Source: Chloroflexota bacterium
GTDB lineage: Bacteria; Chloroflexota; Dehalococcoidia; Lucifugimonadales; UBA826
Length of the DNA stretch: 55,126 nt
NCBI GenBank assembly: GCA_003228105.1
Contig: QGNN01000008.1
Span: 1 to 55,126, forward strand
Reading direction: 5' to 3'
Below are positions 1-49,928 of the stretch, in pieces. Below the pieces are notes generated by a model that saw only the letters and a list, made by a program, of their open reading frames with translations, was not told the DNA's origin and ran no database searches. Numbering within the stretch: position 1 is the first letter of the stretch; the number at the start of each line of letters is the position of its first letter. The position numbers and the translations under genes were made by a program.

Positions 1-1229
1 GCTTCGGTGGTGTGCTTTAGCCCCGTTACATTTTCCGCGCAAAATTCCTCGACTAGTGAGCTATTACGCACTCTTTAAAGGATGGCTGCTTCTAAGCCAA
101 CCTCCTAGCTGTTTTAGCAATTTAACTTCGTTTCACACTTAGCACACACTTGGGGACCTTAGCCTGCGGTCTGGGCTGTTTCCCTCTCGACAATGGAGCT
201 TATCCCCCACTGTCTCACTGCCCGGGACCATCTTGCGGCATTCGTGGTTTGGTTAAGTTTGGTAGGCTCACGCCCCCTTACCTATCCAGTGCCCTACCTC
301 CACAAGACTACCCGAACGCTGTACCTAAATACATTTCGGGGAGAACCAGCTATCTCCGTGTTCGATTGGCATTTTACCCCTACCCTCAGCTCATCCCAGC
401 CTTTTGTACCAGACACGGGTTCGGTCCTTCACCCAGAGACTATCTGGGCTTCAACCTGGCCAAGGGTAGATCACACGGTTTCGGGTCTAATCCATACAAC
501 TTAACGCCCTATTCAGACTCGCTTTCGCTATGGCTCCGGAATTCCAATTCCTTAACCGTGCTGCACAAATTAACTCGCCGGCTCATTCTTCAATAGGCAC
601 GCAGTTAGCCCGACGCATCGAGCCTTCTACGGCTTGTAAGATTACGGTTTCAGGTCTATTTCACTCCCCTCTCGGGGTACTTTTCACCTTTCCTTCACAG
701 TACTGGTTCACTATCGGTGTCCAAGAGTATTTAGCCTTGGAGAGTGGTCTCCCCAGATTCCCACAAGATTTCTCGTGTCTCGCGGTACTTAACAAATTCT
801 CAAGAGTTTCGTCACTTTCGCCTACAGGACTATCACCTTCTACGGTCGTCCTTTCCAGGTGCGTTTGGCTAGTTCAGAAATTTCTTACTCTTCGCCCTCA
901 TTTGAGGTTTAGGCGGAGAAATGTTGCAACACCAAACGGACATAGGACCTCACTCCACTAAGCCCGCCTGGTTTAGGCTATTCCCCTTTCGTTCGCCACT
1001 ACTAGGGGAATCTCGGTTGATTTATACTCCTCGCGTTAATTAGATGTTTCAGTTCACGCGGTTCCCTTTCCTTACGGAATGTCCTGGTATGACCCAGAAC
1101 GGGTTTCCCCATTCGGGTATCCCCGGTTAAGCTTGTTAGACAGCTAGCCGAGGCTTATCGCAGTCTTACTACGCCCTTCTTCGGCTCTTGGACCCAAGGC
1201 ATCCACCGTAATCCCTTAATAACTTGACC
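1..1229 (-). rRNA. rrl: 23S ribosomal RNA, 5' portion (runs off the window)
   Basis: Read on the minus strand, the sequence begins with a typical bacterial 23S 5' end (GGTCAAGTTATTAAGGGATT, then ACGGTGGATGCC) near 1229. It continues through recognisable 23S blocks such as GTGAAGGAAAGGTGAAAAGT, GAACACGGAGATAGCTGGTT and AGAGTGCGTAATAGCTCACT. The gene leaves the window at base 1, so roughly the first 40 percent is present. I see no intervening sequence in this part. Open reading frames on the plus strand here are antisense artefacts. No 16S gene, spacer tRNA or 5S lies upstream, because a protein gene in the opposite direction starts at 1551. The exact 5' end is estimated by eye. Confidence 0.97.
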
Positions 1230-31736: not shown

Positions 31737-32386
31737 TGCTCTATCCAATTTGTAATTTTCTGCAAAAGATCACTTTAAAGTGGTTCGCCAATTTTGAGGT
31801 GTCCGGCCAGGAAAATGTCCCACCTGTAGGACCTTTAATCGTAGTTTCTAATCATTTAAGCAACATAGACCCATCAATTCTGGCGGTTTCTGTCTCAAGG
31901 AGACTGAAATTTCTTGCAAAGAGTAACTTATTTTCGGGACCTTTTATTAGCACTCTGCTACGTTGGTATGGTGCATATCCGCTTAATAGAGACAGAATTG
32001 ATGTAACGTCATTCAAATGGGCTTTAAATCAATTGCGCTATGACGGCGTCATTCTAATCTTCCCAGAGGGAACGAGGAGTAACGGGCCCATGATTAAAGC
32101 CAAACCCGGGGTAGCTAGGTTAGTCCAAATGTCTGATGCAACTATATTACCAGTAGCAATAACTGGAACTGAACACATCGGGAACGGAATGAGGGTAGTG
32201 AACCCAACAGGGAATATTAAAGTAAATATAGGAAGCCCATTCTCACTTCCTAAGATAGATGGAACAATTGACAGTGCTATCTTAAAATCAATGACTGACA
32301 TGATAATGGAAAGAATTTCTCTACTCCTGCCAGAAAACTATAGAGGCGTGTACAAGATCAACAAAAGGGAAAGACTAAATAACTGA
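31736..32386 (+). CDS. plsC: 1-acyl-sn-glycerol-3-phosphate acyltransferase (PlsC family)
   Basis: A 216-residue membrane-associated enzyme adding the second acyl chain in phosphatidic acid synthesis. The catalytic H-x4-D is NHLSNID and the glycerol-phosphate motif is FPEGTRS. A hydrophobic N-terminal segment would anchor it. It overlaps cmk and glmS by one base at either end (TAATG and TGATG junctions), so all three proteins are translated together. Confidence 0.92.
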   Translation: MLYPICNFLQKITLKWFANFEVSGQENVPPVGPLIVVSNHLSNIDPSILAVSVSRRLKFLAKSNLFSGPFISTLLRWYGAYPLNRDRIDVTSFKWALNQLRYDGVILIFPEGTRSNGPMIKAKPGVARLVQMSDATILPVAITGTEHIGNGMRVVNPTGNIKVNIGSPFSLPKIDGTIDSAILKSMTDMIMERISLLLPENYRGVYKINKRERLNN

Positions 32387-34230
32387 TGTGCGGAATTATC
32401 GGCTACACTGGGCGTTCACAGGCATTACCTATCCTTATAGATGGGCTAATAAAACTTGAATATAGAGGCTACGACAGTGCTGGGGTATCAGTCTTCAACC
32501 AAGACCAAACCCACACGACCTATAGATCCGCAGGAAAGCTTAGCGAACTTCAAAAGCTAACCGAAACTTCAAAGGCCGACGGGATGTCAGGTATTGGCCA
32601 TACCCGATGGGCAACCCATGGTGAAGCTAATACGGTAAATGCACACCCTCATAGCGACACTTATGGGAACCTATCTGTTGTTCATAATGGGATTGTAGAA
32701 AATTACCTGGAACTAAAAAAAGAGTTGGTCAAAAAAGGGCATATTTTTAATTCTGATACAGATTCGGAAACTATTCCTCATTTGATAGAACACTATATGA
32801 ATGACGGTGCCACTTTTGAAGAAGCAACCGGGATGAGTGTAGGCAGAATCAGAGGAGCGAATGCGGTAGTTGCTATGTGCAACGATCAACCTGAAAAGAT
32901 AGTAGCGTTTAAAACTGGCAACGCAGGGGGTCTTATAATTGGATATGGGAAGGATGAAATGTTAGTCGCTAGTGATATCCCGGCGATCCTTAGTCATACA
33001 AATACTATTTCGCATATGCGACCAGGGGAACTTGCGATATTGGAACATAACTCCATCAAATTCAGGGACAACAATGGAAATTCCATCGAAAAAGAAAAGA
33101 CTGTCGTTGCAAATAACCCTATCTCTATGGCCAAAGGTAATTACAGGCATTTTATGCTGAAAGAGATATGCGAACAGCCTGACGCCATAATCGCCTCATT
33201 AATGGGTCGACTGTCTTCTAATAAAGGCTTATTTAACCTTGCTGACTTTAACCTTAGGGTAGAAGAAATCAAACAAATTTCGAGAATAACTCTTACAGGC
33301 ATGGGGACGAGCTTGCATGCTGCCATGCTTGCCCGCCTCTGGATGGAACGAATCGCAGGAATACCGGCAGAATGGGATAACTCGTCAGAATTCCGTTATC
33401 GAGAACCGATTCTTGAAAAAGATTCCCTCTTTATATCCATAAGTCAATCTGGGGAGACAGCTGACACTCTCGCGGCGATGGAAGAGGTTCGAAGAAAAAA
33501 TATCACCCAAATAACACTTTCTAACTACTCAAATACACAAGCTTCCCACATAGCAGATCAAACGCTTCAAATCAGGGCTGGATTAGAAGTCGGGGTTGCA
33601 GCGACTAAAACCTTTACATGCTCCTTAGTAACTCTTTATACACTGGCAATATATTTTGGAGTGCAAAGAGAGCACATCTCCCCTAATCAGGCCGCCAGTC
33701 TTACAGAGGAACTTTCCCGGTTACCAGAAATGATAGGAAGCGTTTTGGTTGATCAAAAACAATACGAGGAACTGGCAAGTAAATATCATACTAGCTCAGA
33801 TTTTTTGTTTCTTGGGAGAGGGTACAACTATCCCGTTGCCCTAGAAGGTGCTCTTAAATTAAAAGAAGTCAGCTACATACATGCTGAAGGCTATCCTGCA
33901 GGAGAGATGAAACATGGGCCGATATCACTTATAGACGACAACATGCCGGTAGTCGCATTAATCCCCAAAGACTCTTTATATGAAAAAATGTTAAACACGG
34001 TGAATGAGGCAAAAAGTAGAGGGGCCAAAGTCATTGCAATCGCCTCAGAATCAGACATGGAAATCAGCGCTAAAGTAGACCACGTCATAAGAATTCCTGA
34101 CGTCTCTGATTCACTCTCCCCTATCGTTGCCACAGTGCCGCTGCAATTGATTGCTTATTATTTTGCTGTAAGAAGAGGGTGTGATGTGGACCAGCCGAGG
34201 AACTTGGCTAAATCAGTAACTGTGGAGTAA
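32386..34230 (+). CDS. glmS: Glutamine-fructose-6-phosphate aminotransferase (isomerizing)
   Basis: A 614-residue enzyme that makes glucosamine-6-phosphate for the cell envelope. It has an N-terminal Ntn glutaminase with Cys2 (MCGIIGYTGR), GHTRWATHGEA and the SDTDSE loop, and two SIS domains (SQSGETADT near residue 350; the second near 465). It ends with the canonical QPRNLAKSVTVE. No glmS ribozyme is possible, because the start overlaps plsC. Expression must be set at the operon promoter. Confidence 0.97.
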   Translation: MCGIIGYTGRSQALPILIDGLIKLEYRGYDSAGVSVFNQDQTHTTYRSAGKLSELQKLTETSKADGMSGIGHTRWATHGEANTVNAHPHSDTYGNLSVVHNGIVENYLELKKELVKKGHIFNSDTDSETIPHLIEHYMNDGATFEEATGMSVGRIRGANAVVAMCNDQPEKIVAFKTGNAGGLIIGYGKDEMLVASDIPAILSHTNTISHMRPGELAILEHNSIKFRDNNGNSIEKEKTVVANNPISMAKGNYRHFMLKEICEQPDAIIASLMGRLSSNKGLFNLADFNLRVEEIKQISRITLTGMGTSLHAAMLARLWMERIAGIPAEWDNSSEFRYREPILEKDSLFISISQSGETADTLAAMEEVRRKNITQITLSNYSNTQASHIADQTLQIRAGLEVGVAATKTFTCSLVTLYTLAIYFGVQREHISPNQAASLTEELSRLPEMIGSVLVDQKQYEELASKYHTSSDFLFLGRGYNYPVALEGALKLKEVSYIHAEGYPAGEMKHGPISLIDDNMPVVALIPKDSLYEKMLNTVNEAKSRGAKVIAIASESDMEISAKVDHVIRIPDVSDSLSPIVATVPLQLIAYYFAVRRGCDVDQPRNLAKSVTVE

Positions 34231-34234
34231 GTCG

Positions 34235-34768
34235 TTGAATAAATCGTTTTTTTTACCCTTATTATTTGTAATCATTACGCTAGCATGTACCACTGAAGAA
34301 AATATCGTGGTACCAAAGCAATTAACCAGTGTAATAGAAACGCCTTCTCCTTCTATTGAAAAATTGCCGTATTTTGAACTAACCACCGCTGATGGAAAAA
34401 TAACTTCGAATCATTTTTTAGTCGATAGCAAACCTGAATTCCTGCTTTTTATATCTCCTAATTGAGGAACGTGTATTTCCGAGTTACGGAAATTGGCTAA
34501 AACTGACCAAGAACTTTCAGCATTGGCAAATATTTACATTATAGGAATGAATCCCGGTTATACATTTGAGGGACTAAAAGGCATGGCAGCCGGGAACCCA
34601 AACTGGATTTATGCCCTGCCAGCTGATGCTAGCACATTAAATTCAATAAAAGGGTTGAGCCGATCCACAAAAATTCTAGTGGGTGAAGAAAATGTGATTC
34701 TCAAAAGGTACAAACTTGGTGACTGGAAACTTTCCGAATGGATTGAAATATTTCGGAAGGTAGGCTAG
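34235..34768 (+). CDS. Probable selenoprotein: thioredoxin-like lipoprotein with UxxC motif
   Basis: The frame begins at TTG 34235, four bases after glmS, with GGAG eight bases upstream. It gives a signal sequence with a lipobox-like end (ITLACTTEE). It meets TGA at 34463-34465 (codon 77) and continues in the same frame for 100 more codons to 34768. Around the TGA the protein reads FISPN-U-GTCISELRKL, so the TGA takes the first position of a thioredoxin-type CxxC. After it comes a 7-bp hairpin with AGTTA in the loop, fitting the bacterial SECIS rule. The C-terminal half is a coherent thioredoxin-fold tail (LSEWIEIFRK). A nonsense mutation is the alternative, but the position and hairpin make selenocysteine more likely. 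Likely an extracytoplasmic thiol/selenol oxidoreductase. Confidence 0.75.
34466..34493 (+). promoter_or_regulatory. Candidate bacterial SECIS element
   Basis: ATTTCCG (34475-34481) and CGGAAAT (34487-34493) form a perfect 7-bp stem with loop AGTTA. Sixteen bases separate the TGA from the loop, and G is the second loop base. Both match the published consensus for bSECIS (distance 16-37, G among the first two loop bases). It would recruit SelB at codon 77. Confidence 0.7.
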
Positions 34769-35304: not shown

Positions 35305-35970
35305 ATGGAGAAAGAATTCAATTTCGAAAACCTTTATGAAGAGCTCCGACAATCGCAAATGGATATACAACACCTAAGTGACAGTATCCAGGCTCTACGA
35401 GAAGAATTGGAATTTCAAAATTATGAGGAAGGCAGAAATATTCAATCTGCCCGGATGGAAGGGGTTGACGAGGTGACCCAACTGAAAGAAACCATCACTA
35501 GGTTAAGAGAAGAACTTCAGGATTTGCAGTTCAAAAACAACCAGGTAGTTGAAAGAATACACAGCGACTACGCAGAGGAAATGCAACAACTCAGAGATAC
35601 AGCTAGCGCCCTTCGTGCCGAGTTGGAAGAGCTAAAATTCCAGAAAGGCCAAGACGTTCAGAAAGCTATCTCTGATTCTGCAGTAGAAAGTGACCAGTTG
35701 AGGGCCACTGCTGGTGCGCTAAGACAAGAGCTTGAAGATCTTCGATTCAACAAGGATAACGAGGTCCAAAAAGCCATAACTGATGGAGCAGATGAAATTA
35801 CGCAGTTAAAAGAAACATCAGCGTCTTTGAGAGATAACATTGAAACTGTAAAGAGTGAGTATGACCAAAAACTTCATGACTTAGAAAGGGAAGCTCTCGA
35901 TGAAAACAATCATCTCACTCAAACAATATTGACTTTGAGAAATTCATTGGAAGCGGACTTCAAAAATTGA
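35305..35970 (+). CDS. Coiled-coil protein made of 36-residue repeats
   Basis: A 221-residue, highly charged helical protein with no membrane segment. From about residue 17 it consists of roughly six tandem units of exactly 36 residues, each built on a pattern like DQLRATAGALRQELEDLRF followed by a polar linker that ends in VQKAI-D. Units three and four are closest to each other. The repeat suggests a long rod or a platform binding several copies of a partner. It lies 61 bases upstream of the GAF-GAF-PAS cyclase gene on the same strand, so it may scaffold or localise that signalling enzyme. I know no named family. Confidence 0.75.
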   Translation: MEKEFNFENLYEELRQSQMDIQHLSDSIQALREELEFQNYEEGRNIQSARMEGVDEVTQLKETITRLREELQDLQFKNNQVVERIHSDYAEEMQQLRDTASALRAELEELKFQKGQDVQKAISDSAVESDQLRATAGALRQELEDLRFNKDNEVQKAITDGADEITQLKETSASLRDNIETVKSEYDQKLHDLEREALDENNHLTQTILTLRNSLEADFKN

Positions 35971-36031
35971 TATCCATCGTTTTTAGTTCTTCAATTACTT
36001 ATTATTAATCAAAGAAAGTACAGGTCGAAGT

Positions 36032-38272
36032 ATGGCAAATAAATTAGAAGCCTCAGATAGAGCCGAAATGTTATTGAATATCTCAAGACGGGTCGCCCGA
36101 GATGAATCAATCGAAGACATAATTGCTACCATAATTGAAGTCACTACTTGGGAATTAAATGCAGAAAGAGGGTCTTTATTTTTAAATGATTTAGCAACCA
36201 ATGAGCTGTACACCAGGTTTGCCCAAGGTACTAATTTGAGGGAAATAAGGATACACAACAAAAGTGGGATAGCGGGATCAGTTTTCCAATCAGGAGTTGG
36301 AGAGATCATTCACGACGCGTACAGTGACGATCGTTTTAATTCCGCAGTAGATCAGCAAACAGGATATACAACAAAAAATATCCTGTGCGCCCCTGTCAAA
36401 ACCCTAAATGGAGTAACTATCGGGAGCGCGGAGGTATTAAACAAAAAATCCGGTCGCTTTACCAAGAAAGATTTGGAACTTTTAGAAGCAATGACAGAAC
36501 AAGCAAGCATTGCCCTGCAAAGTGCTCAATTTGTGGAACAAATGCAGAAAAGTCGCAATGAGGAGAGAAAGCTTCTTGACGTGGTTTCGGAAGTAACCGC
36601 AGAAATAGACCTACCGACAATGCTAAGCAAGGTTATGGGAGAAGCGACCAAAATGCTTAACGCTGATAGGTCTTCGATATTCCTTAATGATCCAAAAACT
36701 AATGAGCTTTGGTTACAAATTGGTGACGGATTGGAAAGTACTCAAATAAGGTTTCCGAATCATCTGGGCATAGCAGGAACCGTTTTTTCTTCTGGTGAAA
36801 CTATCAACATCCCTCACGCTTATGCAGACCTCAGATTTAATCCAAATCTTGACAAACAAACCGGGTATTTTACTAGATCGATATTATGTGTCCCAATCAT
36901 AAATAAAGATAGGGTGATTTTAGGAGTTACACAAGTTCTTAACAAAAGAGGAGGGCCGTTTACCGAGGAGGACGAACAGAGATTAAAGGCCTTTACTGCG
37001 CAAATCTCTGTCGGCCTCGAGAATGCCCAGCTTTTTGCAGATGTACAGAACATGAAAAACTATAACGATAGTATTTTACAAAGCGCGGCCTCCGGCGTGA
37101 TCACCTTAGATGAAGACGAAAAAATAATAACCTGCAATGAAGCAGGCCTCAGGATACTAAACATTACGGAATCCGAAATATTACAAAAACCCGCCGTAGA
37201 TTTCTTCACTGGGGAAAATGAATGGTTAATGGACCGCATCAATAAGGTGCAGGATGAACAACAGACTGACACTTTCGTAGATGTATCCTATCAAACAAGT
37301 GATGAAACATTATCACTCAATGGAACTGTTGCACCCCTCATAAGCATGGATGAAAAAAAACTCGGCGTCATGGTAATGCTGGAAGACATCAGTACAGAAA
37401 AAAGAATGAAGTCCACTATGTCTAGATACATGGACCCAGGTTTGGCAGACCAGCTACTTAAAGGGGATGATAATTTAGGAGGTGAAGAAAAAAAAGCAAC
37501 GATTCTATTTTCAGATGTCAGAGGCTTTACTACCATCACCGAACAATTGGGAGCACAAGGGACCGTTCAACTATTAAATGACTACTTTACCATCATGGTG
37601 GATTCAATAACGAATCAAGGTGGTATGTTAGATAAATTTATTGGAGATGCCATAATGGCAGCCTTCGGACTCCCTTTCAGTACAGATGATGATGAAGATA
37701 GAGCATTAAGAGCCTCGATTGACATGATAACCAGTCTTTGGGAATGGAATCAGGTGCGAACTAAAAATGGGTTACCTCCAATTGACATGGGGATAGGATT
37801 AAACACGGACACAGTTGTATCTGGAAATATCGGTTCCCCTAAAAGAATGGATTACACAGTTATAGGAGACGGGGTGAATTTAGCTGCCAGATTAGAATCA
37901 GCCTGCAAACAGTATGCTGCACGCATATTGGTGAGTGAGTTTACGCACTCCAATCTAAAAGGAGTATATAGGACTAGAGAAATTGACAAGGTGATTGTAA
38001 AAGGTAAAACAAAGCCTGTAGGAATATATGAGGTACTAGATTTCCATACCGCTGACACATTCCCCAATGTAATGGAAGTATTGAATTACTTTAAAGACGG
38101 GCTGGGAAAATATAGGGTCGGTGACTGGGACCCTGCCATAAAATCATTTAAAGAAGGTCAGAAGTTAAATCCAAAAGATTATATTACTGAGATGTATATA
38201 GATCGTTGTCAAAGCTTAAAAGCAGATCCTCCGAAAAAATGGGATGGTGTTTGGGTGATGACATCAAAATAA
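36032..38272 (+). CDS. GAF-GAF-PAS class III adenylate/guanylate cyclase
   Basis: A 746-residue soluble signalling enzyme. It has GAF domains at about 20-165 and 190-335, a PAS-like domain at 345-455, a catalytic cyclase domain at 485-650 and a TPR-like helical tail. Metal aspartates are Asp495 (ILFSDVRGFT) and Asp539 (DKFIGDAIMAAFG). Lys535 and Asp607 (RMDYTVIGDG) are the adenine-type specificity residues, and Asn616/Arg620 stabilise the transition state. So it probably makes cAMP under control of small ligands or redox sensed by the GAF/PAS part. There is no transmembrane helix. It follows the repeat coiled-coil gene. Confidence 0.93.
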   Translation: MANKLEASDRAEMLLNISRRVARDESIEDIIATIIEVTTWELNAERGSLFLNDLATNELYTRFAQGTNLREIRIHNKSGIAGSVFQSGVGEIIHDAYSDDRFNSAVDQQTGYTTKNILCAPVKTLNGVTIGSAEVLNKKSGRFTKKDLELLEAMTEQASIALQSAQFVEQMQKSRNEERKLLDVVSEVTAEIDLPTMLSKVMGEATKMLNADRSSIFLNDPKTNELWLQIGDGLESTQIRFPNHLGIAGTVFSSGETINIPHAYADLRFNPNLDKQTGYFTRSILCVPIINKDRVILGVTQVLNKRGGPFTEEDEQRLKAFTAQISVGLENAQLFADVQNMKNYNDSILQSAASGVITLDEDEKIITCNEAGLRILNITESEILQKPAVDFFTGENEWLMDRINKVQDEQQTDTFVDVSYQTSDETLSLNGTVAPLISMDEKKLGVMVMLEDISTEKRMKSTMSRYMDPGLADQLLKGDDNLGGEEKKATILFSDVRGFTTITEQLGAQGTVQLLNDYFTIMVDSITNQGGMLDKFIGDAIMAAFGLPFSTDDDEDRALRASIDMITSLWEWNQVRTKNGLPPIDMGIGLNTDTVVSGNIGSPKRMDYTVIGDGVNLAARLESACKQYAARILVSEFTHSNLKGVYRTREIDKVIVKGKTKPVGIYEVLDFHTADTFPNVMEVLNYFKDGLGKYRVGDWDPAIKSFKEGQKLNPKDYITEMYIDRCQSLKADPPKKWDGVWVMTSK

Positions 38273-49584: not shown

Positions 49585-49639
49585 ATGTTTGACACCTCCT
49601 ATAGTGGATATTATATTTTATTAGTCTTCGGGACTACAT

Positions 49640-49712
49640 GGCTACGTAGCTCAGGGGTTAGAGCGGGCGCTTCATAAGCGCTAGGTCGCTGGTTCAATTC
49701 CAGCCGTAGCCA
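49640..49712 (+). tRNA. tRNA-Met (CAT), elongator type
   Basis: Acceptor stem GGCTACG / CGTAGCC, D-loop GTAGCTCAGGGGTTAGAGC, anticodon loop TTCATAA with CAT at 49673-49675, T-arm GGTTCAATTCC. The first seven bases equal those of elongator tRNA-Met of E. coli, and the C1-A72 mismatch of initiators is absent. An Ile2 (lysidine) tRNA cannot be fully excluded. The 3' CCA is not encoded. Confidence 0.92.
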
Positions 49713-49759
49713 GGGACCCAGTGGGCTCTTGTGCTTGAATTCACTGTGCCGGTATAGAA

Positions 49760-49836
49760 GGGCGGTTAGCTCAGTTGGTTAGAGCGCTACCTTCACACGG
49801 TAGAGGCCAGAGGTTCGAGACCTCTATCGCCCACCA
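49760..49836 (+). tRNA. tRNA-Val (CAC)
   Basis: Acceptor GGGCGGT / ATCGCCC, D-arm TAGCTCAGTTGGTTAGAGC, anticodon stem CTACC / GGTAG with loop TTCACAC (CAC), T-arm GGTTCGAGACC. Encoded CCA at 49834-49836. Confidence 0.95.
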
Positions 49837-49842
49837 GAAGAT

Positions 49843-49928
49843 GCCGAAGTGGCGGAACGGTAGACGCGCTACGTTCAGGACGTAGTATCCGCAAGGGTGT
49901 GTGGGTTCGAATCCCTCCTTCGGCACCA
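49843..49928 (+). tRNA. tRNA-Leu (CAG)
   Basis: Acceptor GCCGAAG / CTTCGGC, anticodon stem CTACG / CGTAG with loop TTCAGGA (CAG), and a long variable arm as in class II tRNAs. T-arm GGTTCGAATCC. CCA is encoded at 49926-49928. An integrase fragment lies just downstream, so the 3' end probably served as an attachment site. Confidence 0.95.

Follow-up and report, generated by a model that had tools for sequence, protein, structure and literature searches.

More than 110 prokaryotic selenoprotein families have been catalogued, including Prx-like proteins (PF00578, UxxC), Redoxin (PF08534, UxxC), TlpA (UGC), and thiol-disulfide isomerase-like proteins (cd02966, UxxC) (PMC13188914; PMC1088965; PMC2398784). 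The published bSECIS model describes a loop of 3-9 nt, a stem of 4-16 bp, a G in the first two loop positions, a spacing of 16-37 nt between UGA and loop, and a minimum free energy of -7.5 kcal/mol or lower (PMC13188914). SelA and SelB were reported in most sponge-symbiont bins, in a set that includes SAR202 bins (PMC5649159), while a full-text literature search returned no paper describing SAR202 selenoproteins.

The DNA analysed here, called the window, is a stretch of 55,126 nucleotides from a Chloroflexota bacterium (contig QGNN01000008.1), whose genome assembly comprises 1.62 Mb in 52 contigs and is 88.7% complete. The frame at 34235-34768 contains a single in-frame TGA (34463-34465); read-through from 34235 to 34765 yields 177 residues with U at position 77, flanked as F-I-S-P-N-U-G-T-C-I-S-E-L-R-K-L, and a TAG stop follows at 34766-34768. 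The TTG start, replaced by ATG at the same position in some relatives, lies 4 bases past the glmS stop. Standard gene calling splits this gene into two fragments, so that the active site is missing from the annotation. A first-pass annotation, made from the sequence alone, had reported one frame continuing through the TGA in the context ISPN-U-GTC, together with a perfect 7-bp hairpin with loop AGTTA, a G at loop position two, and 16 bases between TGA and loop; both are present as it described them. With a probability of about 0.93, UGA77 would be decoded as selenocysteine, under the direction of SelB and the hairpin, in a U-x-x-C membrane-anchored lipoprotein of the thioredoxin superfamily (ResA/TlpA/CcmG-like, Pfam AhpC-TSA clan). 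The mapped parts of the locus are as follows.

34235-34768, plus strand: putative selenoprotein gene, 177 codons from a TTG start to a TAG stop, with Sec at codon 77; predicted lipoprotein with a ResA/TlpA-like thioredoxin domain
34224-34227, plus strand: GGAG, likely ribosome-binding site overlapping the end of glmS, as read from the sequence
34286-34288, plus strand: codon of Cys18, the probable lipid-modified Cys closing the signal peptide, unchanged in 13 of 13 close homologues
34463-34465, plus strand: TGA read as selenocysteine (Sec77), conserved, with Cys in six homologues
34472-34474, plus strand: TGT codon of Cys80, the putative resolving cysteine of UxxC, Cys in 122 of 122 domains
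34475-34493, plus strand: bSECIS hairpin, 7-bp stem (34475-34481 / 34487-34493) and loop AGUUA (34482-34486)
34664-34672, plus strand: Ser144-Thr145-Lys146 motif at the place of the ResA cis-proline, aligned to ResA Pro-Thr; S in 103 and K in 109 of 122
32386-34230, plus strand: glmS, the upstream neighbour in the genus, with stop TAA at 34228-34230

The protein was found in 14 of the 16 family genomes searched, each with exactly one internal TGA, and the TGA occupies the identical codon in all 13 close homologues, counting the one in the window. In public records these relatives go under the names SAR202 cluster bacteria, Dehalococcoidia, or Chloroflexi; some of the records are MAGs and others are not labelled as such, and the latter, for example SAR202 AC-647-P02 and AG-426-M11, which are probably single-cell genomes, carry the TGA too. 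At the level of the order, an enriched profile had matches in 177 of 250 genomes, and 122 homologous domains were read out, of which 115 have TGA at the Sec column, six have TGT or TGC (Cys), and one has TGG (Trp); these 122 come from the better-scoring matches, the part to which the TGA fraction applies. Tandem copies of the Sec lipoprotein, two or three at a time and each with its own TGA and hairpin, are present at L115, L184 (G543), L113, L127, L143, L144, and L181.

It could be argued that the TGA is a true stop in a pseudogene, or a sequencing or assembly error in what should be a Cys (TGT/TGC) or Trp (TGG) codon, and the one homologue with TGG at this place (L146) would suit such an account. 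Against it, 115 domains share the TGA at this codon, the records are independent MAGs and others without the MAG label, the protein downstream of it is conserved while synonymous sites vary, and the hairpin is both frozen and covarying, which leaves this account scarcely credible. A true stop or pseudogene was rejected on the conservation of the TGA across genera and families.

The hairpin at 34475-34493 agrees with all five rules of the published model, having a loop of 5 nt, a stem of 7 bp with all seven pairs perfect, G at position 2, a spacing of 16 nt (34466-34481) that barely reaches the lower limit of the range, and a free energy of -8.4 kcal/mol. As the fold of a single sequence it is modest, at -8.4 kcal/mol against the cut-off of -7.5, with z = -1.5 and 14 of 200 shuffles equally good; the hairpin of one sequence alone exceeds chance by little, and the comparative evidence decides. 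Not one of the hairpin codons for Ser-Glu-Leu-Arg, of which three are six-fold degenerate, varies synonymously in the 13 close homologues, whereas all 32 of the other invariant residues tested do vary synonymously, and none of 100,000 random sets was as low as the hairpin set. Among 109 distinct Sec sequences from across the order, 80.9% of stem cells are paired, versus 63.6% in shuffles and 32-55% with slid partners, and changes on both sides occur at all seven pairs, with 136 double-changed cells versus 48 in shuffles. The outermost pair is mostly unpaired outside the window's family, being paired in 14.7% overall. Position 2 of the loop is G in all 109 sequences, and the loop of 108 of them reads N-G-U-U. 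The amino acids track the pairing of the stem, such that IS-ELR-K, RS-ELR-S, RA-ELR-R, NA-EFR-H, and VS-ELQ-E are solutions of the same pairing, and in the Cys forms the hairpin has decayed, with 14-57% of the pairs left. Rfam scans returned no family at the hairpin, a result that says little because, to our knowledge, Rfam holds no general bSECIS family.

The machinery for selenocysteine is encoded in the window's genome, where SelA (448 bits), SelB (349 bits), and SelD (384 bits) all score over curated cut-offs. The SelD gene (G000 contig C3:23206-24129, L017) has its own in-frame TGA, in the context CAG-U-ASK at the usual Sec/Cys position, which makes SelD the organism's second selenoprotein. 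Searches of this genome assembly recovered no complete tRNA-Sec; contig C32 matches the selC region of a relative at 94% and breaks off 36 nt into selC. The partial selC (G000 contig C32:23377-23412, L073) adjoins a thioredoxin gene and ends after GGACTTC of the anticodon arm, and since the contig end cuts the gene, annotation would report the genome as one without tRNA-Sec. A tRNA-Sec pattern with CTTCARA missed selC as well, because the lineage has CTTCAAC and the genome's own copy is cut. In the family, tRNA-Sec is whole in 13 of 16 genomes (62-70 bits), and ARAGORN gave the anticodon TCA in all 11 of the family tRNA-Sec checked.

These findings bear on a second explanation, in which a suppressor tRNA decodes UGA as Cys or Trp instead of Sec. 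The six Cys homologues and the single Trp homologue would be in keeping with it, yet the presence of the Sec machinery, with a SelD whose gene itself carries an in-frame TGA, the anticodon TCA of the tRNA-Sec in relatives, and a SECIS-type hairpin that would serve no purpose in such a system make suppression very improbable. SelB together with Sec-tRNA(Sec) would instead decode UGA77 as Sec, directed by the hairpin just downstream, as the gene-level evidence suggests. SelB-dependent insertion had been proposed in the first-pass annotation and gains support from the conservation of the TGA, the covarying hairpin, and SelA, SelB, and SelD. The same annotation had regarded Trp or another residue at codon 77, a genome without selABCD, or a sequencing error as arguments against its proposal, and had pointed to a bSECIS analysis as a check: the homologues have TGA (115 of 122) or Cys (6 of 122) with a single Trp; selA, selB, and selD are present, with the first 36 nt of selC at a contig end and the gene whole in close relatives; the same TGA appears in many independent MAGs and in non-MAG-labelled records; and the hairpin follows the rules of the published model with covariation across 109 sequences.

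The forms without Sec are few. On a tree of 121 domains, whose resolution is limited by few columns, three changes are needed for the Cys rows. Among 32 genomes of the order, SelB is present in 22 of the 26 with Sec forms and was not found in G172 (97% complete) and G523 (91% complete), the two isolated Cys-form genomes. Family f124 retains SelB in its four Cys-form genomes; in these, G534, G535, G536, and G538 (L116, L131-L133), the gene has a Cys form and no hairpin, and Sec has been lost from this gene, not from the genome. At L146 (G595:C282), a tandem copy carries TGG (Trp) beside an intact hairpin, in contrast to the TGA of two sister genomes; G595 is a fragmented MAG that yielded no SelB, and the TGG is either an error or a recent loss of Sec use.

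At the protein level, the hydrophobic signal spans residues 1-18, the last of them a Cys invariant in 13 of 13 close homologues; a variable linker follows, and distant members have a similar hydrophobic stretch and Cys. The signal, the invariant Cys, and the variable linker point to a lipoprotein. The predicted model has a mean pLDDT of 77, with the domain mostly at 85-92, and a Foldseek search of it against the PDB returned ResA and DsbE/CcmG, at E about 3e-8, and a Thermus thiol-disulfide isomerase; peroxiredoxins were also returned, below the best matches ResA, DsbE, and CcmG. The conserved lipidation Cys and the predicted fold thus speak for the lipoprotein with a thioredoxin fold that had been suggested at the outset. 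The best domain matches are Pfam AhpC-TSA and Redoxin; the window protein, at 17.7 bits, is below the Pfam cut-off, and distant members are over that of AhpC-TSA (50-63 bits vs 26). A Cys lies at +3 from Sec in 122 of 122 domains, and 121 of 122 have no other Cys, so the redox centre is the Sec-Cys pair. Before the following beta strand, where a cis-proline would stand, there is Ser in 103 of the 122 domains, Ala in 12, and Pro in 1.

From this anatomy, a mechanism may be outlined in which the selenol of Sec77 would attack a disulfide or oxidised substrate outside the membrane, and Cys80 would resolve the intermediate via a Sec-Cys selenenylsulfide, the two residues forming a redox centre in a domain with no other cysteine. 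The protein most likely reduces or isomerises the disulfides of exported proteins, with the reduction of peroxide or another oxidised thiol as the main alternative. The AhpC-TSA and Redoxin matches, the peroxiredoxins among the Foldseek results, and the Ser in place of the thioredoxin cis-proline would all accord with a peroxiredoxin-type peroxidase rather than a thiol-disulfide oxidoreductase. Such a peroxidase is nevertheless unlikely, given that Sec leads the UxxC motif and Cys closes it in all Sec rows, that catalogued Sec peroxiredoxins have TxxU, whose reactive residue corresponds to the invariant Cys80 of this family, and that ResA, DsbE, and CcmG match best in structure.

No consistent clue to function emerges from the neighbourhood of the Sec gene. 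Within the genus, the gene comes after glmS, and the GGAG at 34224-34227, inside the end of glmS, is an apparent Shine-Dalgarno sequence; the translational coupling to glmS first proposed is plausible here, but it does not carry over to other genera, where the gene lies elsewhere, next to genes for NAD synthase, a helicase, or other unrelated products, and in one congener another gene lies between glmS and the Sec gene. A general functional link to glmS was rejected, as the neighbours differ between genera. A dedicated factor for cytochrome c maturation, in the role of CcmG, in place of a general reductase, would match the CcmG/ResA-like fold and the two copies near ccmC and ccmE in one genome (G531). 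This role is improbable, as the other neighbourhoods examined contain no ccm genes, the copies standing beside glmS, NAD synthase, helicase genes, and others, and several genomes have 2-3 tandem copies.

Several other features of these neighbourhoods were recorded. At L185 (G531), positions 330-1845, a ccmC-like gene and ccmE lie near tandem Sec thioredoxins, the only such neighbourhood among those examined. Downstream of the Sec gene in the window, 35305-38272 encodes a coiled-coil protein without a Pfam match and then a GAF-GAF-PAS-adenylate cyclase gene, an arrangement kept in the genus. The window also holds a partial bacterial 23S rRNA, cut by the window edge (1-1229, minus strand), and a tRNA Met-Val-Leu cluster at 49639-49928.

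SAR202 bacteria are abundant in the deep ocean. The near-universal Sec in the order (115 of the 122 domains read out), often in tandem copies, offers a natural series in which a recoding hairpin constrains an active site; it would also make it possible to test whether selenium supply is linked to the redox chemistry of the envelope in SAR202. The odds are about even that this is a distinct, ancestrally Sec-containing SAR202 lipoprotein family without the cis-proline, whose active-site peptide would be shaped by the SECIS as much as by function, and through which these marine bacteria would depend on selenium for extracytoplasmic redox.

Compared with known systems, no NCBIfam model matched the family over its cut-off. 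The best NCBIfam match of the window protein, NF053656 (redoxin_TUGYCR thioredoxin-fold (seleno)protein), also has UxxC, but the match reaches 15.2 bits against a cut-off of 100, and distant members have no match to it at E 0.01; to the NCBIfam ResA/DsbE models, distant members match only far below cut-off. The Sec form of the Prx-like thiol:disulfide oxidoreductase (PF00578; PMC13188914, PMC1088965) shares the AhpC-TSA domain, a Sec first in UxxC replacing TxxU, and a marine distribution, whereas the window protein, compared with it by description only, is below the Pfam cut-off, is a predicted lipoprotein, and has STK for the cis-Pro. The thiol-disulfide isomerase-like or Trx-like 1 proteins (cd02966 / COG0526; PMC1088965, PMC2398784) share the TlpA/ResA superfamily, UxxC, and an occurrence in marine metagenomes; in this comparison, likewise by description only, the difference is that Chloroflexi are unmentioned in PMC1088965 and PMC2398784. 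The family may overlap the metagenomic selenoprotein clusters of 2005 or 2008. ResA, TlpA, and CcmG (DsbE) share the predicted fold, the membrane-anchored extracytoplasmic location, and a CxxC at the same place, from which the SAR202 family differs by Sec for the first Cys and Ser for the cis-Pro. UxxC selenoproteins of the thioredoxin-fold or peroxiredoxin-like kind are already known, and what is new is an order-wide, often tandemly duplicated member of that kind.
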